Source: Acidobacteriota bacterium (lineage in GTDB: Bacteria; Acidobacteriota; Aminicenantia; Aminicenantales; Saccharicenantaceae). Taken from it: DNA of 64,000 nucleotides. A program made the translations under genes and the position numbers. Each line of letters begins with the position of its first letter. Position 1 is the stretch's first letter. This document shows positions 15,749 through 30,747 of the stretch, in pieces. The stretch lies in NCBI GenBank assembly GCA_028749115.1, contig JAQURD010000002.1, positions 53,529-117,528 of the forward strand. Direction: 5' to 3'. Under the pieces are notes generated by a model. It saw only the letters and a program-made list of their open reading frames with translations. It was not told the origin of the DNA and searched no databases.

Positions 15749-17125
15749 ATGGATGTTTTCCTTAATAATCTGGCTCACTGGCTGGATAACACGGCCACTA
15801 ACATCTGGACGATTATGGTTCCGATTTTATTCGGGGTTGGTTTGATTTTAAGCATTAGACTCGGCTTCATTCAATTCACCAAACTGGGAACGGCTTTCAA
15901 AGTAATGTTCAGCCGCCGTTCAAGAAAAGGCGGCGGGGAAGGAGACGTCTCTCCATTTGCGGCTGTTTCCACTGCCCTGGCGGCGACCGTCGGTAATGGA
16001 AATATTGCCGGCGTAGCTACTGCTCTCTACTGGGGAGGACCTGGAGCCATTTTCTGGATGTGGATCTGCGGTTTTCTGGGAATGGCGACTAAATTCTCTG
16101 AAGCCTTCCTGGGAGTCCTTTACCGGGAAAAATATCCGGATGGAACAATCGCCGGTGGCCCGATGTATTACATCAAAAACGGCCTGAATAAGACTAAGTT
16201 TGCTGTCTTTCTGGCTGGCTTTTTCGCCGTTTGCGGAGGCTTTGCTGCCCTTTTTGGCACCGGAAACATGATGCAGAGCAATCAGATGTCTTTAGCTATT
16301 AAAACTCAGTTCGGCATTTCGCCGATCGTAACGGGAGCAATAGTCACTTTTTTTGTTGGCCTGGTGGTCATCGGTGGAATTAAAAGGATTAGCGCCGTAG
16401 CCGAGCGATTGGTTCCCACCATGATTGTTATCTACCTGGCGGCAGGAATCATTGTTCTTATAGACAATTTCGGCGCCTTACCTAATGCCTTCAAGTTAAT
16501 TTTCCAATTAGCCTTCACCCCAGCGGCCGCAACCGGCGGGTTTGTCGGTGCCACTATCAAACAGGCTGTTCAGTTTGGTGCCAGGCGCGGCATTTTATCT
16601 AACGAAGCCGGCCTGGGAAGTGCTCCTATTGCCCATGCTGCAGCCCAGACGCCCAGTCCGCTTCACCAGGGAGTGATCGGCATCATGGAAGTATTTATTG
16701 ATACCATTCTCGTCTGCACTTTGACTGGAATAATCAATATTTCCTCTGGCGTCTGGACCAGCGGAGTATCCGGCTCAGCCATGACAGTCTCGGCCTTTTC
16801 CAAAACCCTGCCCCACATCGGTGGAATCATCGTCGCTCTTTGTTCTTTTCTTTTTGGTTATACGACCATTGTCGGCTGGTGCTACTATGGCGAGCAGTGC
16901 CTCAAGTATCTATTCGGCATCAAAGTAGCCATGCCCTATCGGATCATTTTCATCGCCTTAACCTTTATCGGAGCAGTTGTCTCCATCGAAATAGTCTTCT
17001 TTATGGGCGATATTGCCAATGCCTTTATGGCTTTTCCCAACCTGATTGGCCTTCTCTTGCTGTCAGGGGTTCTGGCCCGGAAAGTTAAAGAAATGAAGAA
17101 GCGTTATCCCAATCTCTTAGAATAG
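15749..17125 (+). CDS. Alanine/glycine:cation symporter (AGCS family)
   Basis: This is an inner-membrane sodium- or proton-coupled importer of alanine or glycine, 458 aa with about ten to eleven hydrophobic segments. The family signature is clear: FAAVSTALAATVGNGNIAGVA near residues 71-91, GMATKFSEAFLGVLYRE, and the later LSNEAGLGSAPIAHAAA. The ribosome site GAGGAG lies about 10 bases before the ATG. The 287-bp upstream spacer has TTGACA at 15644 but a poor -10 box, and I saw no glycine riboswitch. It stands alone and fits the amino-acid-using theme of the window. Confidence 0.92.
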   Translation: MDVFLNNLAHWLDNTATNIWTIMVPILFGVGLILSIRLGFIQFTKLGTAFKVMFSRRSRKGGGEGDVSPFAAVSTALAATVGNGNIAGVATALYWGGPGAIFWMWICGFLGMATKFSEAFLGVLYREKYPDGTIAGGPMYYIKNGLNKTKFAVFLAGFFAVCGGFAALFGTGNMMQSNQMSLAIKTQFGISPIVTGAIVTFFVGLVVIGGIKRISAVAERLVPTMIVIYLAAGIIVLIDNFGALPNAFKLIFQLAFTPAAATGGFVGATIKQAVQFGARRGILSNEAGLGSAPIAHAAAQTPSPLHQGVIGIMEVFIDTILVCTLTGIINISSGVWTSGVSGSAMTVSAFSKTLPHIGGIIVALCSFLFGYTTIVGWCYYGEQCLKYLFGIKVAMPYRIIFIALTFIGAVVSIEIVFFMGDIANAFMAFPNLIGLLLLSGVLARKVKEMKKRYPNLLE

Positions 17126-17952: not shown

Positions 17953-17972
17953 TTCCACCTCGAGACAAAAAT

Positions 17973-18045
17973 TGACCCGTGAAGGACTCGAACCTTCAAC
18001 CCGCGGATTAAGAGTCCGCTGCTCTACCAATTGAGCTAACGGGCC
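17973..18045 (-). tRNA. tRNA-Lys (anticodon CTT)
   Basis: The minus strand folds as a standard 73-nt tRNA. The acceptor arms GGCCCGT / ACGGGTC pair with one G-U, the D-arm is GCTC...GAGC, and the anticodon stem is GCGGA / TCCGC around loop CTCTTAA. The T-arm contains TTCGAGT, and the discriminator base is A. CCA is not encoded. The anticodon CTT reads AAG lysine codons. A good promoter sits just upstream. The 5' 42 nt are repeated at 29416-29457, so this tRNA is the landing site of the island. Confidence 0.95.
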
Positions 18046-18101
18046 AAAAATTATTTTTAAGTTTAGATTAGAGCCATTTAATTGTCAACAGAACGAATGG
18101 C
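18004..18101. repeat. Left copy of the 98-bp direct repeat bounding the island (att-like)
   Basis: This block matches 29416-29513 at 97 of 98 positions (the difference is A at 18067, T at 29479). It holds tRNA-Lys nucleotides 1-42 and the tRNA promoter region. The left copy is joined to the tRNA 3' half, so this tRNA is whole. The right copy is joined to the 3' flank of gltS. Identity stops at the edge of the neighbouring IS, so the original duplicated block may have been longer. Confidence 0.85.
18060..18088 (-). promoter_or_regulatory. Sigma-70-type promoter of tRNA-Lys
   Basis: On the minus strand TTGACA (18083-18088) is followed after exactly 17 bases by TAAACT (18060-18065), about 14 bases before the first tRNA base. 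The same promoter is copied at 29472-29500 in the right-hand repeat. Confidence 0.75.
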
Positions 18102-19490
18102 GTCACTTAAAATCTACACGAAACTGATTCGTTGCTTCACGAGAAAATCTGCACGAAAATCTTTTGCCTTCTGGCTCGCCTTGAAGCTAGATTTGGTGGT
18201 GAGAATAGCCAGGAGGCGAAGCGATGGGTTTAGAGATGAAAGTTAAGAGAGCGATATTAAAGGAGTTAGCCTGTAAGTATCAGAGGAGCTCTAAGAAGGG
18301 CAAGGGCCAGGTGCTGGAGGAGTTTTTAGAGCTTACTAGCTATAACCGCTGTTATGGTAGCTGGTTATTGCGGAACTGTGGTCGGAAGGTAGTGATGAGG
18401 GGGCTAAACGGGGAGGAGGTGATAGTAACTGGGGAGTTAAGGAAGATAAAGCGGAGGCGGAAGAGGGTTTATGATGAAGAGTTCAGGAAGGTGCTGGGCT
18501 GGCCTGTGGCAGGTTCTGGATTACAGTTGTGGTAAGAGGCTGGCCGGGAGTTTAGGCTGGCTGGTACCGAAGCTGGAGGAACAGAGGGAGTTAAGGGTTA
18601 AGAAGCCAGTCAGGGAGAAGCTCCTGAGAGTCTCAGCCTCGACCGCGGATCGGTTATTGCGGCCGGAGCGGAAGAAGATGGAGATAAAGAGTAGAGCCAA
18701 GACCAAGCCTGGAACCCTCTTAAAGCATCAGGTACCAATCAGGACCTATGCGGAGTGGGATGAGAGGAGACCTGGCTTCCTGGAGACAGACCTGGTTGGT
18801 CATGATGGGGGCAGAGCCGAAGGAGAGTTCCTCTGGAGCCTTAATGTCACTGATGTAGCCTCCACCTGGAGTGAAACCGTGGCGGTCAGGAACAGAGCTC
18901 AAGTCTGGACTTTCGAGGCCATCCAGAAGAGATTGCCCTTCAAGCTCCTGGGAATATCAGATAACGATGGGGCCTTTATTAATGCTCACCTCATCAAATA
19001 CTGCCATGATAATCAGCTGACCTTTACTCGTAGTCGACCCGCTAAGAAAAATGACGGCTGTTACATCGAGCAGAAGAACTACTCAGTGGTCAGACGTCTG
19101 GTTGGCTATGCCCGCTATGATCCCAGGGGGAACAGGCTCTCTTAAATGAGCTTTATTCTATCTCCAGACTATATTATAACTTCTTCCAGGTAACCATGAA
19201 GCTCAAAAGTAAAGAGAGAATAGGCAGAGCCGGGTCAGCAAGAGATATGATAGTCCTCAGGCCCCTTATCAGAGGTTATTAGAATCACCATCCATAGAGG
19301 AAGGACAAAAAGAAAAACTCCGGGCAATATATAAAGAACTTAATGTGGTTAAGCTCAAAAAGCAGATGGAAAAGCTCCAGAGCAAACTCTTTCAGCTTCA
19401 AAAATATAAGAAAAAGTGCACAACTTTTCGTCTAGATTCTTACGTGAGGCAATGATTATGATTTCATATGGATTCTCTCATGAGGCAATA
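18102..19490 (+). mobile_element. Decayed insertion sequence with doubled terminal repeats
   Basis: Each end carries two imperfect copies of a roughly 28-bp motif about 35 bp apart. At the left the inner copy is 18132-18159 (begins TTGCTTCACGAGAAAATCT) and a weaker outer copy surrounds 18111. At the right, inverted, the inner copy ends at 19453 (its complement begins TTGCCTCACGTAAGAATCT) and the outer copy ends near 19490. Such paired end-sites are how many DDE transposases bind. Between them lies the broken transposase gene. Exact borders cannot be proven because no clear target duplication is visible. The left border touches the island's direct repeat. Confidence 0.65.
18224..19454 (+). pseudogene. 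DDE transposase (integrase core), several frameshifts
   Basis: The open frame from 18224 encodes an N-terminal helix-turn-helix region (FLELTSYNRCYGSWLLRNCG) and runs to RVYDEEFRKVL. Near 18500 the coding frame shifts by one base and continues as WQVLDYSCGKRLAG. The catalytic core follows: FLETDLVGHDGG, NVTDVASTWSE, GISDNDGAFINAHL and a KNDGCYIEQKN block, giving Asp, Asp and Glu of a retroviral-integrase-like DDE triad. At about 19133 the frame shifts again, and a third shift near 19270 leads to a charged coiled tail ending at 19454. With at least three frameshifts it is dead unless read by programmed slippage. It resembles ISNCY-type transposases, but I cannot name the family for certain. 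Confidence 0.75.
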
Positions 19491-19552
19491 AGGATTGGTT
19501 GGATTTGACAAGATCTAAAAATAAACGCATGATAGAAGAAAAAGAGGGTGCC

Positions 19553-20008
19553 ATGAAGGTATTTTTAAGTTTTAGTATAAAAGATTTTAATCTGGCAAAA
19601 AATCTTAAAGAAGCTTTGAAGGCAATTTGCGATGTCTATATAGCATCCGAGGATATTCGACCTGGGACACCTTTATGGAAGAAGATTGAGGCAAATATAA
19701 GATCAAGCAATTTCATAATAGTCCTTATGACAAAAAACGCAGAGGGCTCAGCAATGGTCCAACAAGAAATAGCAACAGCAAAAGCAAATCACATAACTGT
19801 CATTCCCGTAGTAGAACGAGGAGTTCAATTAAAGGGAATTCTGGAAGGCATTGAATATATTGAGTTTGATAAGCAGAACATTGCCGTTGCGCTAAAAGGC
19901 TTAGCTCATTATTTGAGAAAAGAAAAGAAAGAAAAAGACCTCAGTGATTTATTGACTATTAGCCTTCTTATAGGTGGACTCTTTATGTTGATCGGCAAGT
20001 CTAAATAA
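19553..20008 (+). CDS. TIR domain protein with C-terminal membrane helix
   Basis: The 151-aa product opens with VFLSFSIKDFNLAKNLKEAL, the first strand and helix of a TIR fold. It keeps DIRPG (34-38), the FIIVLMT strand and a glutamate in the alphaC position (Glu72 in VQQEIATA), where catalytic TIR NADases carry their active Glu. After the domain come a basic linker and a hydrophobic helix (about 131-147), so it may be tail-anchored. I chose ATG 19553, with GAGGG upstream, over an earlier TTG in the frame. In bacteria TIR proteins act in anti-phage defence by cutting NAD+ or making signalling nucleotides. The next gene encodes another membrane protein and may be its partner. It lies right after the IS, in AT-rich DNA. 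Confidence 0.8.
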   Translation: MKVFLSFSIKDFNLAKNLKEALKAICDVYIASEDIRPGTPLWKKIEANIRSSNFIIVLMTKNAEGSAMVQQEIATAKANHITVIPVVERGVQLKGILEGIEYIEFDKQNIAVALKGLAHYLRKEKKEKDLSDLLTISLLIGGLFMLIGKSK

Positions 20009-20092
20009 TGAAACTATATAGATGCTTACTGTAGCTTGTGGCATTATAGGAAAAGCAAATAAGGATAGAAAAAATTCTTAGTAATTAATAAA

Positions 20093-20620
20093 ATGAACAA
20101 TATAGCTATTTGGATAAGTATTTTTTCTCTCATAATTGCAGGAATATCGCTGAGTTGGAATATTTATAAAGAACTTAGGAAACCGAAATTAAAATTAAGT
20201 TTGTCATTAGCTCCGCAATATTTGAAAATTTATGCTACAAATGCAGGCCCTGGGGACATTACCATAAGTAATCTCGCCATTCTAAAAGCTCGGTGGTTCC
20301 TGCTCAAAAAGTTATTTAAGAAAGATACCTACGAATATATGCAGTTAGCTTCTACGCGCCTTCTATCTCAATCCTTCAAAGAATATAGGTCATTAGGCAC
20401 CCAATCTCCAATGCCAGTTCTCCCTAAACCGCTCGGTATTGGAGAAATGGACGTCCTCGAGATAGACCTTGACAAAACTGATTGTCTAAAACGAAAAGAC
20501 TTTATAAGAGTCGGCATAGTCGATTCCTATGGTAGAATTCATTGGGCATCAAGAAAAAATTACAAAAGGATAAAAAAGGAATTTGAAAAAGGTTTAAAAA
20601 ATCATAAGGAAGAAGATTAA
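20093..20620 (+). CDS. Membrane-anchored hypothetical protein next to the TIR gene
   Basis: The 175-aa product has one N-terminal membrane helix (IAIWISIFSLIIAGISLSW), followed by a basic stretch and a beta-rich domain (LKIYATNAGPGDITISNLAI, then FIRVGIVDSYGRIHW) resembling a small immunoglobulin-like or sensor domain. It ends in a lysine- and glutamate-rich helix. I do not recognise a named family; proteins of this shape are common among island cargo. Direction, 84-bp spacing and composition suggest it travels with the TIR gene. Function is unknown. Confidence 0.55.
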   Translation: MNNIAIWISIFSLIIAGISLSWNIYKELRKPKLKLSLSLAPQYLKIYATNAGPGDITISNLAILKARWFLLKKLFKKDTYEYMQLASTRLLSQSFKEYRSLGTQSPMPVLPKPLGIGEMDVLEIDLDKTDCLKRKDFIRVGIVDSYGRIHWASRKNYKRIKKEFEKGLKNHKEED

Positions 20621-20788
20621 TGCCCCTGTCGTCATAAAAGTCCAGCAAAAAATAAACAGACAGATCATTGTTATTTTTGATTCATACATTGGTCTAGGCC
20701 TGATAATCTCTTTGAACCACGATCTTAAACTTGAATGCTGTCTTGATACCGTGCTAGAAGGCCGTATGCTTTTAGGATCTGAAAATTC

Positions 20789-20814
20789 TATACTGACCCC
20801 CCGAAGAGGTGGAC
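20789..20814 (+). mobile_element. Solitary IS3-type terminal repeat
   Basis: The 26 bases starting TATACTGACCCCCC match the IS3-family end at 27771-27796 at 24 of 26 positions, in the same orientation. No transposase follows here, so this is a leftover end. Confidence 0.6.
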
Positions 20815-21070
20815 GCTTGTGGGGCGATAGTTGAATGTAGAACAAGGATGAGTTAATTTATTCAAAAATATAATCAAGAGAGGCTGCATCAGTCTTTATG
20901 GGCATATGATATGGCCTTCGAGACTTATCCTCAGATTCAAATAGTTGTGGTATGTTAAAGGAATCATACCTTAAAGAAAAATTAAATTTCGTCTGTGTTA
21001 GGTCAGACACATTGGTGACACTTGATGTAAGATAGGTGTTGCCATGTATATACAACCTACGACCACTTAA

Positions 21071-21180
21071 GGTTCACTTATTCCTGGGTTTGAGTATATC
21101 CGGTCTTTAGTTCGGCAGGGCACCATCTCAGCGGCTGTGGCCAGGAGGCTTCGCTGGATGGATCATTATCAACGGCAATT
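21071..21180 (+). pseudogene. Fragment of an IS integrase-type transposase N-terminus
   Basis: One frame reads PGFEYIRSLVRQGTISAAV and then ARRLRWMDHYQRQ. This is the typical first helices of IS481/IS3-like integrase-core transposases, where RRLRWMDYYQ is common. It begins after a stop at 21070 and passes straight into unrelated sequence at about 21175. Only this scrap remains. Confidence 0.5.
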
Positions 21181-21437
21181 ATATGGGCGATATACCCTTG
21201 AAACTCCGACTAGAATCAAAAAAAGATTATGCTATCGAGTTCCGGAAGGAAGGGTATCCAAACAAGACCGTTAATGTTCAGAACAAGGTTGACGCACTGT
21301 GGATTGTTCTTGATGTTGTAGCTGGACTTGTCCCAGTAATTGTCGACGCTGCGACGGGTTCTTGGTATGAGTTCGACCAAAATACCGTCAAGGTTATTTC
21401 GGAAAAAACAGGGATCTCACCTGTTCCAGAGTCTTAA
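21159..21437 (+). pseudogene. C-terminal fragment of a PEGA-domain lipoprotein
   Basis: The frame encodes GNYMGDIPLKLRLESKKDY, EFRKEGYPNKTVNV and then VAGLVPVIVDAATGSWYEFD. This is the end of a PEGA-type surface repeat protein whose typical form is GxTPLxLxLxxxxxYxIxFxKEGY followed by a membrane-like GLVPVIVDAATG block. No signal peptide or lipobox precedes it: the sequence upstream is the transposase scrap. An ATG at 21183 could start an 84-aa product, but I read it as a remnant brought or broken by an insertion. Confidence 0.55.
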
Positions 21438-21669
21438 GCACAATTTTAATCAACCTACAGACGAAAATATGCATGTTTTTTATTTCAGTAAGCGTTACGT
21501 TAGCCAGTATAAAAATTTGTCATGATCCAGACTGAGCCAGATTTTATTACATAGTAACTACCTAGCAGCTGTCAACAAAGCAATCCTATACAAGGCTTTT
21601 TCTGTCCAAACTATGGGGAGCACCTCAATTCCTGCCTTTCTCTTATTTATCAAAAGCCTAACCTTAAAA

Positions 21670-21864
21670 ATGAATATGAGGTTAAGTGAGAAAGCAATTA
21701 AAGACTTAAAAGAAATCTATTTTAAAGAATATGGAAAAACGATTTCTGATGAGGAAGCCCAGGACTTAGGTGAAAGGCTGATTTCGCTATTTAAAATTAT
21801 CTATCGGCCTATCCCGGGAAAAGACACGCCCTCTCAGGATAGCCATTTTTCCGGCAAGCCTTAG
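21670..21864 (+). CDS. Small conserved-looking helical protein upstream of the recombinase
   Basis: The product from ATG 21670 is 64 aa: MNMRLSEKAIKDLKEIYFKE, then an acidic helix with EEAQDLGERLISLFKIIY. I recall short proteins of this type directly in front of large serine recombinases in uncultured bacteria, but I have no family name. The reading frame continues upstream to 21613; that part does not look coding. It may be a recombinase accessory or directionality factor (inference). It ends 121 bases before the recombinase. Confidence 0.5.
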   Translation: MNMRLSEKAIKDLKEIYFKEYGKTISDEEAQDLGERLISLFKIIYRPIPGKDTPSQDSHFSGKP

Positions 21865-21985
21865 CAGCTTTGACATATTTTTTATTCAGATTAAGATCCT
21901 AGGTAAATCCGTTAAATATTGAGGCTGGGTAAGCTTACTTCTCAAAGACTCCTGAGAGAAAGAAGATGGCTGAGCCTCTCATTCT

Positions 21986-23739
21986 ATGTCTCGTTATTTC
22001 ATTTACTGCCGGAAGTCTTCAGAATCAGAAGACAGGCAAGTATTATCACTCGAATCTCAGCTGAGTGAGCTTCGCCAACTGGCCACAAGATTAAATCTTC
22101 AGGTTATTGATATCTATAGCGAATCTCAATCAGCTAAATCTCCTGGCCGTCCCTATTTTAATGAAATGCTCAAAAGAATTAGCCAAAAGGAAGCTGATGG
22201 CATTATCTGCTGGAAACTTGACCGTCTGGCCCGCAATCCCATCGATGGCGGTCAAATCATCTGGCTTCTTCAGAAGGGAATTATTCAGCATCTTCAGACC
22301 TTCGATAGAAGCTACTACCCTGAGGATAATGTCTTGCTAATGAGTGTGGAGTTTGGCATGGCTAATCAGTATATTCTCGATTTAAGTAAAAATGTCAGAA
22401 GAGGCTTAAAATTTAAGGCTGAAAAAGGATGGCTGTCGGCGCTCGCACCTCTTGGCTATCTTAATGAGAGAAGTCAGGGGAAAGGGAATGCACGGATAAT
22501 TAAAGACCCCGAAAGATTTAATCTGGTCAAAAAGATGTGGCAACTCATGCTGACTGGGCAGTACACCCCACCCAAGATAGCTGACATTGCTAATAAAGAG
22601 TGGGGGCTTAAAAGCTATCATGAAGAACCAATTAGAAGAAGCAGTATCTATCAAATCTTTTCTAACCCCTTTTATTGCGGCTGGTTTGAATACCCTAAAG
22701 GCAGCGGCAATTGGTATAAAGGAAAACATCAACCAATGATAACCAAAGAAGAATATGAGAAGGTTCAAATCCTTTTAGGCCGAAAGGCAAAGCAACGGCT
22801 TAAAAAACATCAATTTGCTTTTACTGGACTTATTGAGTGTGGTGAATGTGGAGCTATGGTCACCGCTGAAGAAAAAAACCAAATTATCTGCTCTAAATGC
22901 AGGCATAAGTTCTCCTCTAATGGTAAGCTTTCTTGCCCTTATTGTGGCACCCTTATTTCAAAAATGAAGAAACCAAAGTTTCTTCACTATGTCTACTATC
23001 ATTGTACTAAAAGAGTTAATCCTGAATGCAGCCAAAAATCTATCTCTGAGAAGGAACTCGAAACCCAGATTGATTCTTATCTCAAAAATATTCAAATCTC
23101 TGAAGGATTTAAAGACTGGGCTATTAACTATCTAAAAGAAGAGAATGAAAAAGAAGCGCAAATGAGGGAGTCAATCTTTGCCTCACAAAGAAAAGCTTAT
23201 GACGCCTGTCTTAAGAAGCTCAATAATCTTTTCGAGTTGAAAATCTCACCTAAAAATGCCGATGGGAGTCTTCTCTCTGACGAGGAGTATAAGAAGCACA
23301 AAACTGAGCTCTTAAAGGGAAAAGCCGGCTTGAAGAGTTATTGAATGATCGCGGGGATAGAGCTGAGGACTGGCTCGAGACGGGCGAAAAGATTTTCAAT
23401 TTTGCCTGTTATGCCCCCTATTGGTTTGAAAATGGCACGCCTAAGGAAAAATTCCAAATTTTAAGGGCTCTCGGTTCGAACCTAACCTTAAAAGACAAAA
23501 AGTTAGTAATAGAGCTACATTTTCCCTTCGAAGCGATTGGAGATATGTCAGCCAGGGTACCTGAAGTAAAAGGTGAGTTCGAACCTAAAAAGCGTGGCTT
23601 AAATAAAGAAGATTTTGAAGAAATCTACACCCACAGTCCAACAGTGTCCGCCACAATGGATAAAATTCGAACCCGGATAAAAAATAACTGGGGAAATCTA
23701 AGGTCGCTTACATCTATACTCGAAGCATGTATTGTTTGA
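21986..23739 (+). pseudogene. Large serine recombinase (resolvase/integrase), split by one frameshift
   Basis: The first 452 codons (to 23344) give a complete catalytic domain: YCRKSSE with the active Ser11, [11 protein letters not shown] and [11 protein letters not shown] recombinase domain ([11 protein letters not shown]) and a zinc ribbon ([10 protein letters not shown] ... CSKCRHKF ... CPYCGT) follow. The reading frame then stops at 23342-23344, but the coiled C-terminal part continues in the next frame from 23341 to 23739 ([21 protein letters not shown] ... FQILRALGSNL). Adding one G at about 23333 (TTGAAG to TTGGAAG) would join them as [10 protein letters not shown]. So either a one-base deletion inactivated the gene or the assembly has an error. 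It is the only recombinase in the island and the likely mover if once intact. Confidence 0.85.
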
Positions 23740-24049
23740 TATTTTATATCTTGACGCTGTACCTTAGATCAAGAATATATTTAGATAAGCAGATGGTTTT
23801 ATTCTTTGAAGTTAATTAGCTTTGCTATTTTGAATAATGTTATGGCCTAACATAAAGTCGACATGTTCCAGCAAAAGTAATTGGCCGCCTGTAAATTGAT
23901 CAATACTAAATTCATGTAAGAGTGGCCATAATCAATTAACGGTAAATCCCGCTCTTTGTGCATGTTTTCTTAACAGAAGAGAGATTTTGTCTTGACTACA
24001 TTTATTTTTTTTGCTATAAGAAAATTGTAACATAAGGCAAGCTCAAAAC
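23740..24049. other. Spacer between recombinase and methyltransferase, with promoter
   Basis: No gene is seen. The left part is AT-rich with no clear repeats. The right end holds the promoter listed separately. A weak AAGG lies about 11 bases before the methyltransferase ATG. Confidence 0.5.
23992..24020 (+). promoter_or_regulatory. Sigma-70-type promoter of the methyltransferase-dGTPase operon
   Basis: TTGACT (23992-23997) and TATAAG (24015-24020) are separated by exactly 17 bases and sit 30 bases before the first ATG of the pair. This near-consensus promoter suggests that the two genes are expressed on their own, apart from the recombinase. Confidence 0.65.
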
Positions 24050-25465
24050 ATGGAAATGTCAGGCGAACAACATAACATTAAATTTACAATTAAGAACCAC
24101 GTATTACCCCTATTTAATAATAGGGAATTTTTATCAAGCATTCAAAAACAGATTGTTGGTTTGCTTAAAACCGACGATCTAACTTTATCGGATTTGTTGT
24201 CTCGACTTCATAATTGTGACCCTCTCGTTACTAAAAAAGGTATTGAAGATTTAATTTCAAACGAAATAGTAAATTATAATCCTCGCAAAAAACAATACTC
24301 AATTAAGAAGTCTTTGGATGTTGGTTTATCAAAATCATCAGATGACCCCCTAGATGGCTATAGAAATAAAGATTTTTTAACAAAATTACCATTTGCAAAT
24401 GACCAAAAAACCTCTGATATCATTCAGGCGATAAAGAAAAACCTGCCCGAGGCCTCACCCGTGTATTTTCAATGGTGGTTTGAAGATTCATCACTGCCCT
24501 TATTATCAAGCGCAATTTTATCAAGGATATCCAATTCAGAACGCATTGCTTTAATTGGTGCCCCTACCTTAGGGGCTTATGTGTCTCATTTTATTAAAAA
24601 TCGGATTGTAATATTCGATGTTGACGAAACACTCCTCAATAATCTAAAAAGTGAGGCGAAAAATAATTCTGATCTTATTAGATATGACGTAGTAAGTAAT
24701 CTTAATAAAGATTTTCAAAACAATTTTAATATTGTATATTTGGATCCTCCTTGGTATGTAGATTATATTCTTACTTTTCTTAAAAGAGCGTCTGAGCTAT
24801 GTAAGCGAGGAGGGCTTGTTTTCATATCTTTGCCACCTGTTAATACACGGCCAACTATTTATCAAGAAAGAAAAAGAATTTACAAATTTATCAAGGACTA
24901 CAAATTTAAAATAATCTCTTATTGGCCATCAGCTATAAAATATGAAGTACCAAAATTTGAAGCCAGGGCTTATGAACAATCAGGTGTTAAGCTAAAACAG
25001 CCTTGGCGGGAAGGAGACCTTCTCTTATTAAGAAAAACAGGGGATGTAATCAATGCCGATTTTCTAGAATTACAGGTAGAGCAAAATAGTTGGAGCGAAT
25101 TCATTATTAACGAATGCCGCCTATTCCTTAAAGAAACTACATGCTCAACTGAAAATAGTTCTATTTCTCTTATTTCCAAGCCCAGTGGTTATGATAGTTT
25201 TTACCTAAAAACGACTAGCTTAAGAGAATCTGCAAGAAAAATGGCGGATATAATATCATCTCGAAATCATGCCGCTCTGGTCAAAAACAAAAAAATAGCT
25301 AAAGAAATGTTAGACGCCCTTTCAAAAAAAAGGGAGCTAACAAAAATTGAGCAAGAAATATTTATAAGATATAAATCTTCCAAAAGAGAAATTGCTGAGG
25401 CAATAGCTACCTTAACATCCTTTACTCAAAGCGAAGAGCCTGATGAGAAAGCAAAACATTTATAA
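24050..25465 (+). CDS. Predicted SAM-dependent methyltransferase with DPPW motif and N-terminal winged helix
   Basis: The 471-aa product has a winged-helix-like region at about residues 30-90 (LLKTDDLTLSDLLSRLHN, NEIVNYNPRKKQYSI). A class I Rossmann core follows: motif I ALIGAPTLGAYVSH (167-180), the acidic end of strand 2 at IFDVDE (188-193), and motif IV VYLDPPWYVDYI (229-240). DPPW is typical of amino-group methyltransferases such as N6-adenine enzymes. The layout (winged helix, then DVDE, then DPP) also recalls the branched-polyamine synthase BpsA/DUF43 fold. The C-terminus is helical. It overlaps the following dGTPase gene by 23 bp, so the two are tightly coupled. Composition is clearly more AT-rich than the chromosome around the island. 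Target (DNA, RNA, nucleotide or small molecule) is unknown. Confidence 0.7.
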   Translation: MEMSGEQHNIKFTIKNHVLPLFNNREFLSSIQKQIVGLLKTDDLTLSDLLSRLHNCDPLVTKKGIEDLISNEIVNYNPRKKQYSIKKSLDVGLSKSSDDPLDGYRNKDFLTKLPFANDQKTSDIIQAIKKNLPEASPVYFQWWFEDSSLPLLSSAILSRISNSERIALIGAPTLGAYVSHFIKNRIVIFDVDETLLNNLKSEAKNNSDLIRYDVVSNLNKDFQNNFNIVYLDPPWYVDYILTFLKRASELCKRGGLVFISLPPVNTRPTIYQERKRIYKFIKDYKFKIISYWPSAIKYEVPKFEARAYEQSGVKLKQPWREGDLLLLRKTGDVINADFLELQVEQNSWSEFIINECRLFLKETTCSTENSSISLISKPSGYDSFYLKTTSLRESARKMADIISSRNHAALVKNKKIAKEMLDALSKKRELTKIEQEIFIRYKSSKREIAEAIATLTSFTQSEEPDEKAKHL

Positions 25466-26768
25466 TAAGAAAGAATTAGAAGACTATGAGGAAAAATATT
25501 TAGCTTCTTACGCTTTGAAGTCTAAACAGGCAGAGAGAAATCGGCACGAACCCTCCCCATTAGAATATAGAACTCAATTTCATAGAGACAGGGATAGAAT
25601 AATCTGGAGTAGATCTTTTAAAAGGCTGCAGCATAAAACACAGATCTTTCCATGTTATAGCGCCGACCATTTTAGAAGGCGACTAACCCATAGCTTAGAG
25701 GTTAGCCAGATAGCTACTACCATTGCGAGAAGCTTAGAATTAAATGAAGTCGCTACTGAAGCTATGGCTCTTGCACATGATATTGGACACGCGCCTTTTG
25801 GACATAGCGGAGAAAAAGCATTAAATGAAAAATTAACTGAATTAAAGGAGAAAAATAACCTTCTAGAAAACAAAAATGTAATAATCTATAACTTCGATCA
25901 TGCTTTGCAGGGTGTTGAAATTGTGGAAAGGATTGAAAAAGAATACGAGCCAAAGTATTCAGGACTAAATCTTACTGTTCCTGTAATCGAAGGTATTTTA
26001 AAACATAGGAGAAGGAACCTTAAAGAACCAAGTCCAATAAAAGAAAAATTGACATATAAGGAAATCGTTAATAAAGATAAATATACTAAGTACGGCCTAG
26101 ATTATGGCTCATTAGAAGCACAATGCGTATTTTTTGCCGACAAGCTGGCTTATTTTTTTGCTGACTTTGAAGATGCCCTTAGATCTCATATATTGAATTA
26201 TTCTGAGATTAATAAGGGAAGCTTTAAGCAATTTATAGAAATGATTAACGGGATAGCAGATGCTCATCAGTATCCAAAAGTCGAGAAAAATATAGATAAT
26301 ATAGACCTATTTTTAGAATTTAGGAGGAAGGCAATTAGTGCACTAATATTAAATGTAATTGAAGCTTCCTATAATCTTATTTCCAGTTATAAATTATCTT
26401 CTCCCATCGAAGCAAAGAAACTTAAAAAGAGGATGATAAAGCTGGACGCAAAATATGAAAAAATTAAAGACGTTACCTATGATGACTATATAAAACAAAG
26501 AGTATTTAATCATGAACTATATAGAGCAACAGAATTTAAAGCTGAAACGATTATAAAAGACCTTTTTGATGCATATTATCAAGATAGAAAGCTAATTCCG
26601 GCCGATTATAACGATCATATTATAAATGCTTACCGAGGCTTAAATCTAAATGAAAAGGAGATAAATATTTTATCAGTTAAGAACTACATTGCCGGAATGA
26701 CAGACTCATTTATAATATCTAGGCACAAAGATCTTTTTATGTCGAGTGAAAATATCTTAATTATTTAG
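25443..26768 (+). CDS. dGTPase-like HD-domain deoxynucleoside triphosphohydrolase
   Basis: HD-fold enzymes of the Dgt/SAMHD1 family cut dNTPs to deoxynucleoside and triphosphate. The 441-aa product keeps the family's N-terminal block (DRDRIIWSRSFKRLQHKTQIF) and the metal ligands: His83 in RLTHSLEV, the His112-Asp113 pair in LAHDIGHAPFGHSGE, and a later Asp in FFADKLAYF. The C-terminal helical half is less conserved. Chromosomal dgt genes are housekeeping, but homologues in islands act against phages by draining dNTPs. Here it sits in an island and overlaps the upstream methyltransferase gene by 23 bp, which argues for a joint function. It is AT-rich like its partner. Enzyme family is confident; defence role is inference. 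Confidence 0.85.
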   Translation: MRKQNIYNKKELEDYEEKYLASYALKSKQAERNRHEPSPLEYRTQFHRDRDRIIWSRSFKRLQHKTQIFPCYSADHFRRRLTHSLEVSQIATTIARSLELNEVATEAMALAHDIGHAPFGHSGEKALNEKLTELKEKNNLLENKNVIIYNFDHALQGVEIVERIEKEYEPKYSGLNLTVPVIEGILKHRRRNLKEPSPIKEKLTYKEIVNKDKYTKYGLDYGSLEAQCVFFADKLAYFFADFEDALRSHILNYSEINKGSFKQFIEMINGIADAHQYPKVEKNIDNIDLFLEFRRKAISALILNVIEASYNLISSYKLSSPIEAKKLKKRMIKLDAKYEKIKDVTYDDYIKQRVFNHELYRATEFKAETIIKDLFDAYYQDRKLIPADYNDHIINAYRGLNLNEKEINILSVKNYIAGMTDSFIISRHKDLFMSSENILII

Positions 26769-26965
26769 CACAAAACAATAGTGGCAAGTAACGGGAGTAA
26801 ATTCAATTGAAAAGTATAGGCTTTTAAGATGGGAAGGCTGGTGTACAAAATAGCTCGCGGTTTGTTCTGAAGGAGCGAACCATCGTAAAATCTCTCTCAA
26901 AAGAAGCCATTTATAAACTGTCAGACAGAAGAATATTAACCCCTAATGAGGGTATGTTTAATAAA

Positions 26966-26990
26966 AAGGAAGCAGATTTTCTGCTTCCTT
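26966..26990 (-). terminator. Rho-independent terminator of the nuclease gene
   Basis: A perfect 11-bp inverted repeat (AAGGAAGCAGA / TCTGCTTCCTT) with a 3-base loop is followed, on the minus strand, by TTTTTATT. It lies about 20 bases after the stop of the minus-strand nuclease gene. There is no T-run on the plus strand. Confidence 0.8.
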
Positions 26991-27010
26991 GGTTTGTTGA
27001 GGAGGTGCTA

Positions 27011-27769
27011 TTATTGGCCTTGCCAGGCTTGACATTGGGCTGCATATTCGCAGTCTTTGCACCAGAAACCTGGCCGAGGAAAGAAGATTTTAAGATTAAT
27101 TCCCTTAAGAACCTGCTCAGCAATTGAGTAGAGCCGCTCATATCTTGCCTTATCACGTTTGGTTTCAAATGTTAGGATCTTCGGCTTTTTTGATTTAACA
27201 AAATCGATGAGCTTTAAGGCCTTCGGGGTTTTCTGATAGAGCCTTTCATAGGCATAGCTGTAGATTGTTAGCTGAAGAGATTCGTCTGCATCTTTAGAAT
27301 CTACCATCTGACCTGAAGTCTTAAATTCAACAATTACATCACCTACCTCAATTAGGTCAATGACACCTTCGAGATCAATCAGAGGGACTTGACCGTTTCC
27401 GGGTCTAATAAGCGGCACTGAAAATGGAACTTCTGAGCATTTAGCTTTCTTTGGAGGAAGGTTATAGTAAAGACTCAGCATTTCCTTAGCCAGGACTCCA
27501 AGCTTCATCTCATCTTCACCGTTCTTAAACCTGATCTCATTTTCGATTCTTTGACTGTACCAGTCTGCTTCAAAAATCTTAAAGAGCTTTTCGAGCGGCA
27601 CTCCACTATCAGTCATGGTCTCCCTGTGGAACCAGGAAAGGGCTGAGTGAAGGGCACTGCCAAAGGCTAAGCCTGAGGGCTTGAAGGGCTTGGGGAGAAA
27701 ATCAACATACTGGAACTTGTATTTTAGGCCACATTGAAGGTAAAGATTGATTTGAGAGCTAGAAAGGTA
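27011..27769 (-). pseudogene. RecB/Cas4-like PD-(D/E)XK nuclease, start codon removed by an IS3 end
   Basis: The reading frame encodes SSQINLYLQCGLKYKFQYVD, then LPKPFKPSGLAFGSALHSAL with the conserved His. The nuclease core includes IDLEGVIDLIE and VIVEFKTSG (the D...E-x-K site), and the C-terminal cysteines WCKDCEYAAQC join the N-terminal Cys to hold an Fe-S cluster, as in Cas4 and AddB-type nucleases. Homology runs right up to 27769, and the next codon is a TAG formed exactly at the junction with the IS3 end at 27771. The native start is therefore lost. An ATG at 27616 could restart translation but would drop the first cysteine and the motif-I His. A strong terminator follows the stop. Confidence 0.75.
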
Positions 27770-27770
27770 C

Positions 27771-28010
27771 TATACTGACCCCCTGAGGAGGTGGACACCT
27801 CTGAGAGATAGAGATTATACTGAGTAAGGAGGTGTCAGGATGAAGCTAAGGCAATGGAGTTCAGAGGAGAAGATGGCCATTGTGCTGGAAGCGCTAAAGG
27901 GGCAGAAGTCGGTGGCTGAGATTTGCCGGGAACATCAGATCAGTCAAACCCTCTTCTACCGCTGGCGCGCCCGGTACTATGCCGAATCCAAAGGCTGGCA
28001 AGTCAAATGA
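27771..28010 (+). mobile_element. IS3-family element, left part only
   Basis: A terminal repeat starting TATACTGACCCCCTGAGG (27771-27796) is followed by a short orfA. No orfB or right end follows, so the element is cut after the first gene. A second, solitary copy of the same end lies at 20789. Confidence 0.7.
27840..28010 (+). CDS. IS3-family transposase OrfA fragment
   Basis: The 56-aa product from ATG 27840 reads KLRQWSSEEKMAIVLEALKG, then SVAEICREHQISQTLFYRW. This is the helix-turn-helix and start of the leucine zipper of IS3 OrfA proteins, whose usual length is about 90-110 aa. GGAGGTG lies about seven bases upstream. It stops early at TGA 28008 and no OrfB follows, so it cannot transpose alone. 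Confidence 0.75.
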   Translation: MKLRQWSSEEKMAIVLEALKGQKSVAEICREHQISQTLFYRWRARYYAESKGWQVK

Positions 28011-28134
28011 CTGGCTTGATTAGCGTGGGGCCGAAGTCTCTCCCGAATTTGTGGGACGCAGAAAATAAGAGGCCTCGATGATATAAGAGACGAGCGCAAT
28101 AGGTTTATAAATTTTAGCTGAAAGAGGAATCAAA

Positions 28135-29058
28135 ATGCCTACAAATCCAATCAAAGAATTTATTCCCAGAGAAATTGAATCGCCTCAATTAAAGGCGGTT
28201 CTAAGTCAATTTTCAGCTTTTATAGATGAAACGATTAACTTTGGTTCTCATGTCTTTAAATGGGGAATTGAAAATATCAAAGGAGGGGATGAAAATATCC
28301 CTGTATTTCTTACTTATAGGCATATATTTGAGTTATTAGATTCAATATCTGTATTGATTAAAGAATCCTGTGTGGAACCTTGCAAATCAATTTTAAGAGC
28401 TCTCTTCGAATCATTTCTCACATTTGAGTATATCCTAGAAAAGGATACCGAACAGAGAGGAAGAGATTATTTAATATGGTGCAGACATCGTGAGTTAAAA
28501 TATTATAGACGCCATGACCCAACTGACATTTTATATAAAGAATATAATTCAAAAATAAAGAAAGATAAATTGTTAAAAAATATGAAAAGGCTCATAATTC
28601 CTGACATAAAAGCTCAGATTGATTCTTTGAATATAATATTTAGCCTGCCATCTTATGCTGACTCTGAAAAGGAATATCAAAGAATGAGAAATCCGAAATG
28701 GTGGTTCAATATGCATAAAGGGCCTAATGACATTCAAACGCTAGCAACATATTTAGGATACGCTGCGTTTTATGATATTCTCTATCGTTTCTGGTCAGAT
28801 TTTTTGCATGGTACAGACATAATGAGAGGAAAATTTTCTATTGATAAGCCTGGTGAAGTTGCGTTTACACAACTGAGGCTTCCCACCGAAGCTCAATTTG
28901 TGACATTGATGTCAGTTAGTTTTGCATTATCAGTTATCAGAAATTTAATCAATCATTATGTTAAATCAAGAAAGCAAGAAATGAGAATTTGGTATTTGAA
29001 AGAAATTAGAGATAAATATTTGGAACTCGCCAAAATGAATCGAATTGAAGTCCGATAA
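28135..29058 (+). CDS. DUF5677-like protein of unknown function
   Basis: The 307-aa product is mostly helical. The middle carries SCVEPCKSILRALFESFLTFEYIL, with charged HRELKYYRRHD after it. Later comes FWSDFLHGTDIMRG, whose (S/D)xxxHG pattern matches what I know of DUF5677 proteins. No signal peptide or clear membrane segment is seen. GAGGAA lies seven bases before the ATG, so expression is likely. It is the last gene of the island and is AT-rich like the other cargo. Proteins of this family occur in many islands, sometimes near defence genes, but no activity is established here. Confidence 0.65.
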   Translation: MPTNPIKEFIPREIESPQLKAVLSQFSAFIDETINFGSHVFKWGIENIKGGDENIPVFLTYRHIFELLDSISVLIKESCVEPCKSILRALFESFLTFEYILEKDTEQRGRDYLIWCRHRELKYYRRHDPTDILYKEYNSKIKKDKLLKNMKRLIIPDIKAQIDSLNIIFSLPSYADSEKEYQRMRNPKWWFNMHKGPNDIQTLATYLGYAAFYDILYRFWSDFLHGTDIMRGKFSIDKPGEVAFTQLRLPTEAQFVTLMSVSFALSVIRNLINHYVKSRKQEMRIWYLKEIRDKYLELAKMNRIEVR

Positions 29059-29415
29059 AATCAATATGAATAATGTTTCGAAAGAAAAATAATTGTTCCG
29101 TGAGTTTATGGGGTCTACAGGAAAGGCTATGGATCGAGGAAAGTAGTAACTAATGAATCCGCAGCCTATATTATTTAATCCATTATCGCTATCGGAGGAT
29201 AGCAGACATAGAAAATTAGCATGCTTTTTGGGAGCTGCTCCGCCTATCTCTTAAGGATATGTGAAAAAGAAGCAAATGTGGTGTCCAAATAGTGTCTACA
29301 AGACTCCTAAATCAGCCTAAAATTGCCCTTTAGAATCTAAAACAGAAACAATGGCAATTTCTATATAAATCAATAATTTAGTTTGTTTTCAACAAGTTAG
29401 TTCGATTGTCCAAAA
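29059..29415. other. Gene-free right shoulder of the island
   Basis: There is no coding frame of note. The stretch is AT-rich, and it is where recombinase arm sites might lie if the right repeat is an attachment site. I could not identify defined repeats. Confidence 0.4.
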
Positions 29416-29457
29416 CGGATTAAGAGTCCGCTGCTCTACCAATTGAGCTAACGGGCC
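29416..29457 (-). pseudogene. tRNA-Lys fragment (5' half, nt 1-42)
   Basis: The minus strand matches tRNA-Lys(CTT) from its first base through the anticodon loop and into the 3' side of the anticodon stem (ends TCCG). It then passes into unrelated AT-rich DNA. T-arm and acceptor 3' strand are missing, so no mature tRNA can form. Confidence 0.85.
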
Positions 29458-29513
29458 AAAAATTATTTTTAAGTTTAGTTTAGAGCCATTTAATTGTCAA
29501 CAGAACGAATGGC
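29416..29513. repeat. Right copy of the 98-bp direct repeat bounding the island
   Basis: It is identical to 18004-18101 except for one base. It ends one base before the TGA stop triplet region of gltS (29515-29517). It includes a full copy of the tRNA-Lys promoter (minus-strand TTGACA at 29495-29500, TAAACT at 29472-29477), which would fire leftward into the island. Confidence 0.85.
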
Positions 29514-29514
29514 C

Positions 29515-30747
29515 TCAACCAAAAATGTTCAGGAAAACAGTGATCAAAAGAGCATTAGTAAAATCAATAAAGAAGGCACCAACCATCGGCACGACCAGAA
29601 AAGCCCGGGGCGCTCGTCCAAATTTGTCCACCAGGACTTTCATATTGGCCATGGCGTTGGCCGTCGTCCCCATCATGAAGCCGCAAAAGCCGCTGCTCAT
29701 GACAGCCGATTCATAATCCCGCCCCATCAGTCTGAACACCGGCCCGAGACAAAGCAAGGCAATTAAGATGACCTGACCCACCAGAACAATGATCAGAGGC
29801 AGAACCAGACCGGCCAGTTCCCAGAGTTTGAGCGTCATCAGGGCTATAACCAGGAAAAGCGACAGCGAAACGTGGCCCAGGTCATCCATCGTCTTCTGGG
29901 AAAGCCCGATGAGGCCGGTCAGATCGTCCAGATTACGGATGATGGCTGCCACAAACATGGCCCCGATGTAAGCAGGAAGCGTAAAATGAAGGGCCGCAAA
30001 GCCCTGGCTCAGCCAGGACCCGATCCACATGACCACCAGGAGCACAACCGTATTTTTAAGGAGAATGTAGGCTTCCCTGTCTTCTCCAGATGGTGTAATC
30101 TCCTTAGGCTCAAGAACATTGGCTTCGACAATCTCATCGGCCGTGGCGACCTGGATAGCACGGGGCTTGGCGGCAGGCTTACGTAATTTGTATCGTTCAA
30201 TCAAAAAAGTGCCAAGTGGCCCACCGATTAACCCGCCACTGATAATTCCAAACATGGCCGCAGCTACAGCAATAGTAGCCGCCCCCGTCACTCCGGTCTT
30301 TTCAAAAAGCGGGGCAAAGGCCAGGCCGGTGGCCGGACCACCGGTCAGGGTCACTGAACCTGCCAGAACTCCGAACAGAGGCTTTAAACCCAGCAGCACA
30401 GCCAGGCCCACACCCAGAACATTCTGGAAAATAGCGGCCACCGTGGCAATGATAAAAAAAAGCAAAACCTGAGGGCCTCCCACTTTGAGAAGCCGCAGAC
30501 TGGCTCCGAAACCAATGGTGGTAAAAAAAGCAATCATCAGAGGATCTCGAAGGGTCGTATCAAAAGTAAACAGGCTAAGTCCATAATTGCGGGCGATAAG
30601 AGCGGCGAAAGCCACCAATAAGCCTCCAACCACAGGTGCAGGAATGTTATACCGCGACAGAGGCTTGATCCAGCGGCAAAGTCCATAGCCGAGAAAGAGG
30701 ATGATACCGGCAAAGGCCACTGTATTGATGAGGTTTAGGTTCAACAT
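29515..30747 (-). CDS. gltS: Sodium/glutamate symporter
   Basis: This is an inner-membrane sodium-coupled glutamate importer, 410 aa and rich in membrane helices. The two inverted-repeat pore motifs are visible: GSVTLTGGPATGLAFAP near residues 130-147 and GFCGFMMGTTANAMANM near residue 360, the GGxG/GxxT-A type loops of the ESS family. It starts 3 bp after the stop of the APC permease gene, so the two form an operon. Its 3' end abuts the island's right direct repeat. The codon choice looks more GC-rich than that of many neighbours, but I did not compute it. Confidence 0.9.
   Translation of the reverse strand: MLNLNLINTVAFAGIILFLGYGLCRWIKPLSRYNIPAPVVGGLLVAFAALIARNYGLSLFTFDTTLRDPLMIAFFTTIGFGASLRLLKVGGPQVLLFFIIATVAAIFQNVLGVGLAVLLGLKPLFGVLAGSVTLTGGPATGLAFAPLFEKTGVTGAATIAVAAAMFGIISGGLIGGPLGTFLIERYKLRKPAAKPRAIQVATADEIVEANVLEPKEITPSGEDREAYILLKNTVVLLVVMWIGSWLSQGFAALHFTLPAYIGAMFVAAIIRNLDDLTGLIGLSQKTMDDLGHVSLSLFLVIALMTLKLWELAGLVLPLIIVLVGQVILIALLCLGPVFRLMGRDYESAVMSSGFCGFMMGTTANAMANMKVLVDKFGRAPRAFLVVPMVGAFFIDFTNALLITVFLNIFG

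Follow-up and report, generated by a model that had tools for sequence, protein, structure and literature searches.

An 11.4-kb island inserted at a tRNA-Lys gene of an Acidobacteriota bacterium, flanked by direct repeats of the 5′ half of the gene and its promoter

We analysed a 64,000-nucleotide stretch of DNA (hereafter referred to as the window; contig JAQURD010000002.1, positions 53,529 to 117,528, of assembly GCA_028749115.1) from an Acidobacteriota bacterium, in which an island of 11.4 kb lies between an intact tRNA-Lys gene and gltS. The island is a real insertion, and both of its ends carry the 5′ half of the tRNA-Lys gene together with the promoter. With a probability of roughly 0.55, we consider that it entered by site-specific recombination, the crossover falling in the anticodon arm, and that the element itself supplied a 5′ half with promoter. 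The features that define the insertion are as follows.

17972..18046, minus strand: intact tRNA-Lys(CTT), whose 3′ half is native and whose 5′ half belongs to the left repeat copy (ARAGORN; the 3′ side is continuous with that of genomes G018 and G017)
18004..18101, minus strand: left repeat copy, holding tRNA-Lys nt 1-42, the promoter, CAGAA and 8 bp in common with the end of an insertion sequence (IS)
29416..29513, minus strand: right repeat copy, the displaced tRNA-Lys 5′ half with its promoter, continuous with native gltS
15749..17125, plus strand: sodium:alanine symporter, native left flank
29515..30747, minus strand: gltS, native right flank

The direct repeats at 18004-18101 and 29416-29513 are identical at 97 of 98 bases, the sole mismatch being A at 18067 against T at 29479, and the second copy within the genome (E = 3.6e-45) is far beyond chance; the repeat of tRNA-Lys nt 1-42 and promoter that the initial annotation had placed at both island ends is thus borne out. 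The bases bordering the repeats differ on either side (18003 G and 29415 A; 18102 G and 29514 C). With nt 1 of tRNA-Lys at 18045, position 18004 is nt 42. Beyond the tRNA, the repeat extends for another 56 bp, which include the −10 box (TAAACT, 18060-18065 in the left copy), the −35 box (TTGACA, 18083-18088) and 13 bp more (18089-18101), starting with CAGAA (18089-18093). The right copy consists of the 5′ half only, since the Rfam tRNA model scores it at 32.3 bits as a 5′ half alone and at 27.1 bits when the island flank is included; these scores ruled out a decayed full tRNA. The arrangement is that of an island in a tRNA gene (tDNA): an intact tDNA and an end fragment in the same orientation, the 5′ fragment lying upstream. 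A tRNA-Lys(TTT) is also encoded elsewhere in the genome. The displaced promoter in the right copy (29416-29513) retains its −35 and −10 boxes and is directed into the island, against a gene for a DUF5677 protein; it could give rise to a truncated tRNA or an antisense RNA.

The empty site was found in the same genus. Among 60 relatives, 29 have gltS, and ARAGORN was run on 22 loci (20 loci with gltS, one with a piece of gltS at the edge of its contig, and L039, a recombinase locus). In two of these loci, those of G018 and G017, tRNA-Lys adjoins gltS and the left flank is syntenic, the order being symporter, one tRNA-Lys and gltS with nothing in between; the island-free site that had been predicted for related genomes therefore exists in two congeners. 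In alignments with both genomes, the left copy runs into the native 3′ half of the tRNA gene and the right copy into native gltS, which shows that the 11.4 kb were inserted. At the mismatch position, G018 and G017 both carry the base of the left copy, so that the right copy is the altered one, as fits a disused copy. Among the 19 genomes of the genus (18 of which gave matches), a second copy of the 5′ half with the promoter occurs in the island-bearing genome only. All other additional matches show 74-86% identity; five of those in this genome were looked up and fall in other tRNA genes.

Duplication of a 5′ half is the minority arrangement. In the accessible parts of the Islander report (PMC4383910), 3760 islands have a 3′ tDNA fragment and 159 a 5′ fragment, out of 3919 in total, in agreement with the earlier statement that most islands duplicate the 3′ half. 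The corresponding parts of two further reports describe 5′-end islands in Sinorhizobium meliloti (9 of 88, with flanking repeats of 12 to 98 bp across all 88 islands; PMC11476347) and archaeal pTN3-like integrases whose attachment site lies in the tRNA 5′ half (PMC8371274). As far as these sources go, the island in the window resembles the 5′-fragment islands of Islander in its intact tRNA gene, its upstream 5′ fragment in the same orientation, the position of the island between the two and a border near the anticodon; it differs from them in that it lacks a tyrosine integrase, its promoter is duplicated and its far border is an IS end. Islander's filter admits islands that contain a tyrosine-family integrase, which this island does not, and it is therefore classed only under the broader kind, an island at a split tRNA gene. 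The 5′-end islands of S. meliloti share with it direct repeats that match the tRNA 5′ end and a tRNA that is kept whole, whereas tyrosine integrases are present in them (PMC11476347, as accessible). The pTN3-like systems share the attachment site in the tRNA 5′ half and a rebuilt tRNA driven by an element-borne promoter, but their enzymes are archaeal tyrosine recombinases and that promoter is the one of the integrase gene (PMC8371274, likewise). The geometry, which the initial annotation called unusual, is thus genuinely rare but already known, and the island is a good, somewhat decayed example of the rare class. The other suggestion made there, that the duplication arose by a different route, keeps some probability because no active integrase turned up and because the left copy borders on an IS end. 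Backed by two empty sites, the island represents a clean case of the rare 5′ geometry, in which the host tRNA gene comes to rely on a promoter supplied by the invader.

We propose the following course of events. A mobile element of ~11 kb would have inserted into the tRNA-Lys gene by a site-specific crossover in the anticodon arm, its attachment site carrying a copy of the tRNA 5′ half and promoter. The native 3′ half on the left would thereby have been completed by the 5′ half and promoter of the element, so that the gene would still work, and the original 5′ half and promoter would have been stranded at the right end, beside gltS. During later decay, an IS would have inserted at its customary site, directly before the −35 box of the left copy, the DNA to the right of the IS would have been rearranged with loss of the target duplication, and the recombinase gene of the element would have been frameshifted. 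Of this course, the insertion with its borders, the empty site, the intact tRNA and the decay are shown, whereas the site-specific mechanism, the place of the crossover, the enzyme and the sequence of events are inferred. Site-specific recombination needs the fewest events to explain why the gene is intact, where the border lies and how the empty site looks. On the tRNA side the repeat ends at nt 42, a single base inside the outer edge of the anticodon stem; we estimate that about 3 of 75 positions would lie that close by chance.

The only integrase-like gene of the island encodes a large serine recombinase, now in two pieces.

21986..23344, plus strand: large serine recombinase, N-terminal part (Resolvase, Recombinase, zinc ribbon)
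23341..23739, plus strand: C-terminal part of the recombinase in another frame; both parts align to one 589-aa homologue in G052

The two pieces (452 and 132 aa, in different frames) together cover the unbroken G052 protein end to end, the first being 73-74% identical to it, and the Resolvase, Recombinase and zinc-ribbon domains are all present. The genome encodes no other Recombinase-domain protein, and G018 and G017 encode none. A tyrosine integrase was rejected as the enzyme of the island, as no PF00589 match falls inside it. To characterize the recombinase family, we used the best 80 of 165 loci from a scan of genome contigs, 72 of which have at least 600 bp downstream. In 42 of the best 80 loci, the opposite strand carries a tRNA gene 200-500 bp beyond the end of the match, which is where the recombinase terminates; these tRNAs are of eleven kinds, and many recombinase stop codons lie inside the tRNA. 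As a control, an antisense tRNA was found for 11 of 873 other long open reading frames of the same loci. Even the distant recombinases of the order (24-30% identity) have a tRNA at that side in seven of eight cases (L041-L047), the eighth running off its contig. This linkage of serine recombinases to tRNA genes appears to be a stronger result than the island itself and merits its own study.

Several side observations concern this family. In L105, L109, L150, L151 and L157, tRNA-Asn-like halves stand beside recombinase genes, ~180 to >600 bp apart (L109 has the 3′ part alone), and the inserts between them look like putative group I introns. In L163, L166, L167 and L168, inverted repeats of 51-65 bp are present, one arm where the recombinase meets the tRNA and the other ~1-4 kb upstream from the start of the match, as if these members were small transposons ending at the tRNA 3′ end. 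All 195 plasmid records that match the recombinase are below 60% identity, and plasmids were rejected as its carriers on that ground. The G052 locus, tried as a guide to the element ends, has no tRNA or tRNA fragment in 60 kb (ARAGORN and Rfam).

To find stranded halves at other sites, we searched for further copies of each half of the 42 recombinase-side tRNAs outside other tRNAs (score of at least 16), with an inverted control. Four direct matches in three loci (5′ halves in L106, L115 and L132; a 3′ half in L106) were obtained, against one in the inverted control. A stranded 5′ half lies upstream in L115 (tRNA-Asn) and L132 (tRNA-His), two of the 42, with a border that we read as falling in the anticodon loop; L106 has a shorter 5′ piece and the 3′-half copy. 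In the sister genus g4, displaced tRNA-Arg 3′ halves (92-100% identical) are present in G021, G023, G024 and G025 and break at the anticodon loop or a few bases beyond it, alongside shorter and more diverged fragments, such as one of 86% in G025. These 3′-half breaks have their mirror image in the nt 42 border of the window. The tRNA-Arg(CCG) of the sister genus (L203-L207, L231-L234) is a hot spot of integration: tyrosine integrases accompany the displaced 3′ halves there, and G025 additionally has a serine recombinase at the tRNA. For the G025 C12 island, none of the seven sister genomes compared gave a match across the tRNA 3′ side, the 5′ side being conserved in five; there is hence no clean empty site, and G024 was rejected as one. 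A stretch resembling TTCGAACC lies at the end of the recombinase genes of the family. These gene ends, and one G025 fragment broken in the T loop, had suggested a T-loop crossover for the family; the idea was rejected because the break of the G025 C12 fragment is at the anticodon loop and because tyrosine integrases are present in both of the G025 islands examined.

One point that escaped the initial annotation is that, on the promoter side, the left repeat copy stops at an IS end.

18094..19493, plus strand: IS with an rve-type transposase in broken frames (18224-18535 and 18471-19145), its left end 5 bp from the tRNA-Lys −35 box

The left junction reads tRNA, CAGAACGAATGGC, IS, and 8 of the 98 bp of the repeat overlap the IS end. 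Matches to the 18094-19493 element occur in 17 of the 19 genomes of the genus; the regular IS end is CGAATTGCC, in most copies the left end closely resembles CGAATTGCCTCAC, and the copy in the window reads CGAATGGCGTCAC from 18094. The rve match of the transposase is weak (22.1 bits, below the cut-off of 32.6). From 38 loci we kept 25 left ends, in which the alignment starts no more than 3 bases from the end and at least 40 aligned bases and at least 45 bases of flank are available, near-duplicates being dropped. When the flank was read outward, a −35 hexamer started exactly 5 bp from the IS left end, with a mean of 4.92 matches out of 6, as compared with 0.76-1.96 at 23 other offsets. The hexamer at this offset is TTGACA in 13 of the 25 and matches it at four or more bases in 22, and the −10 score peaks after a 17-bp spacer (3.68 out of 6). 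Target duplications of 5 bp were exact, as judged by eye, in L064, L085 and L090. The IS in the window keeps the same distance to the tRNA-Lys −35 box yet has no target duplication (cagaa on the left, gattg on the right), indicating that one side was rearranged after insertion. Since the far end of the repeat is the IS end, its length of 98 bp may have been set later; the repeat may formerly have been longer, and a gene at the IS-side end may have since been lost.

In the accessible parts of the report on the ISAjo2 group of the IS1202 family (PMC10132070), those elements likewise have one end fixed 5 bp from a target motif and a length of ~1.4-1.5 kb. They also have a DDE transposase and a 5-bp target duplication, features that the present IS may share. 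The targets differ, being the XerC site of dif or pdif for that group and a −35 box for the present IS. The IS at the border offers a second test case of an element that locates promoters with base-pair precision. Like the tRNA linkage of the recombinases, the IS family result looks stronger than the island finding and deserves separate study.

We favour site-specific recombination because the border lies near the edge of the anticodon stem and the gene and promoter are whole, as in tDNA islands; because of the empty sites in G018 and G017, the stranded 5′ halves in L115 and L132 and the g4 breaks at or past the anticodon loop; and because the one integrase-like gene of the island belongs to a tRNA-linked family. 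A number of observations weigh against it. The promoter-side border is an IS end rather than the border of an attachment site. The last 13 bp of the repeat (18089-18101) are missing from G018 and G017, so that the copy carried by the element must have come from this species or must have been converted by the other copy. No second genome with the island was found, its DUF5677 gene occurring in one of the 94 genomes of the order, the one that bears the island. There is no tyrosine integrase in the island, the two PF00589 matches of the genome both lying on contig C13 and none on C32; the recombinase gene is frameshifted and lies 3.9 kb from the left end. According to ARAGORN, its three nearest relatives (L092 of G052, L096 and L093; 74, 70 and 66% identity) have no adjoining tRNA; in the window, the region by the recombinase end (23601-24100) gave no tRNA-like match. 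Members of the family usually adjoin the 3′ end of a tRNA gene, which is the reverse of the geometry seen in the island. Finally, both G025 islands examined also hold a tyrosine integrase, and the anticodon-loop breaks are therefore not creditable to the serine recombinase.

The serine recombinase is a candidate enzyme for the insertion. We regard as doubtful the specific proposal that a tRNA-linked large serine recombinase inserted the island via the anticodon arm, in mirror orientation, and supplied the 5′ half and promoter. If it were true, serine integrases would specify tRNA genes like tyrosine integrases do and could rebuild either half; and if the link between recombinase and tRNA were catalytic, a standing rule on tRNA targeting would fall and new natural target sites would open.

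Of the other routes, homologous integration of the Campbell type is unlikely. Here a circle with a fragment of the host tRNA-Lys upstream region would have recombined through RecA, free of any integrase, and left flanking direct repeats. Such a route would fit the lack of a remaining active integrase, a shared block that reaches 56 bp past the tRNA into species-specific DNA, and repeats that are 99% identical even though genes in the island are broken. A length of 98 bp is short for RecA-dependent recombination, however, and it would take a coincidence to place the border one base from the outer limit of the anticodon stem.

Repair by template switching, at least as improbable, would have patched a promoter break or a stalled fork with foreign DNA starting at the IS end: the polymerase would have left the chromosome at a short match and re-entered inside the tRNA, so that 98 bp were copied twice. 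In its favour, 11 of 12 bases agree between the native CGAATGGCCTCA and the usual IS end CGAATTGCCTCA at the left joint, the sequence of which looks like a hybrid of both, and the IS lacks the 5-bp duplication (cagaa against gattg). However, the IS stands at its usual offset of 5 from the −35 box, as ordinary transposition would place it, and a later deletion on the right side accounts for the lost duplication. An assembly artefact, in which an extrachromosomal circle with one 98-bp copy was joined to an empty chromosome or two strains were mixed, is very unlikely: a 98-bp repeat can mislead a short-read assembler and the draft genome has 41 contigs, but on either side of the island the outer flank is native and shares its synteny with G018 and G017, and the circle would still carry the tRNA 5′ half, just as site-specific recombination supposes of the free form.

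The remaining features of the island are listed below.

19499..20008, plus strand: TIR-domain protein, defence-like cargo
24050..25465, plus strand: N6-adenine methyltransferase-like protein, overlapping the following gene
25443..26768, plus strand: dGTP triphosphohydrolase-like protein (HD domain)
27011..27616, minus strand: PD-(D/E)XK nuclease, Cas4-like
27770..28010, plus strand: IS remnant with a piece of HTH_Tnp_1 transposase, its end repeated at 20788-20821
28135..29058, plus strand: DUF5677 protein, found in this genome only (one of 94 of the order)

The G+C content is 32-41% in nine of the ten 1-kb windows between 19 and 29 kb and 43-52% on either side. The description of the interior as mobile-element debris and AT-rich cargo throughout holds for the base composition, the IS pieces and the frameshifted recombinase; it does not extend to the TIR, methyltransferase, dGTPase-like and DUF5677 genes, which look intact. 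No relative of the island methyltransferase was confirmed in viral contigs. In the G052 element, a longer open reading frame near the recombinase resembles the Cas4-like nuclease, as judged by eye. The methyltransferase-like and dGTPase-like genes (24050-26768) overlap by 23 bp and have the TIR gene nearby; the pair is possibly a defence cassette.

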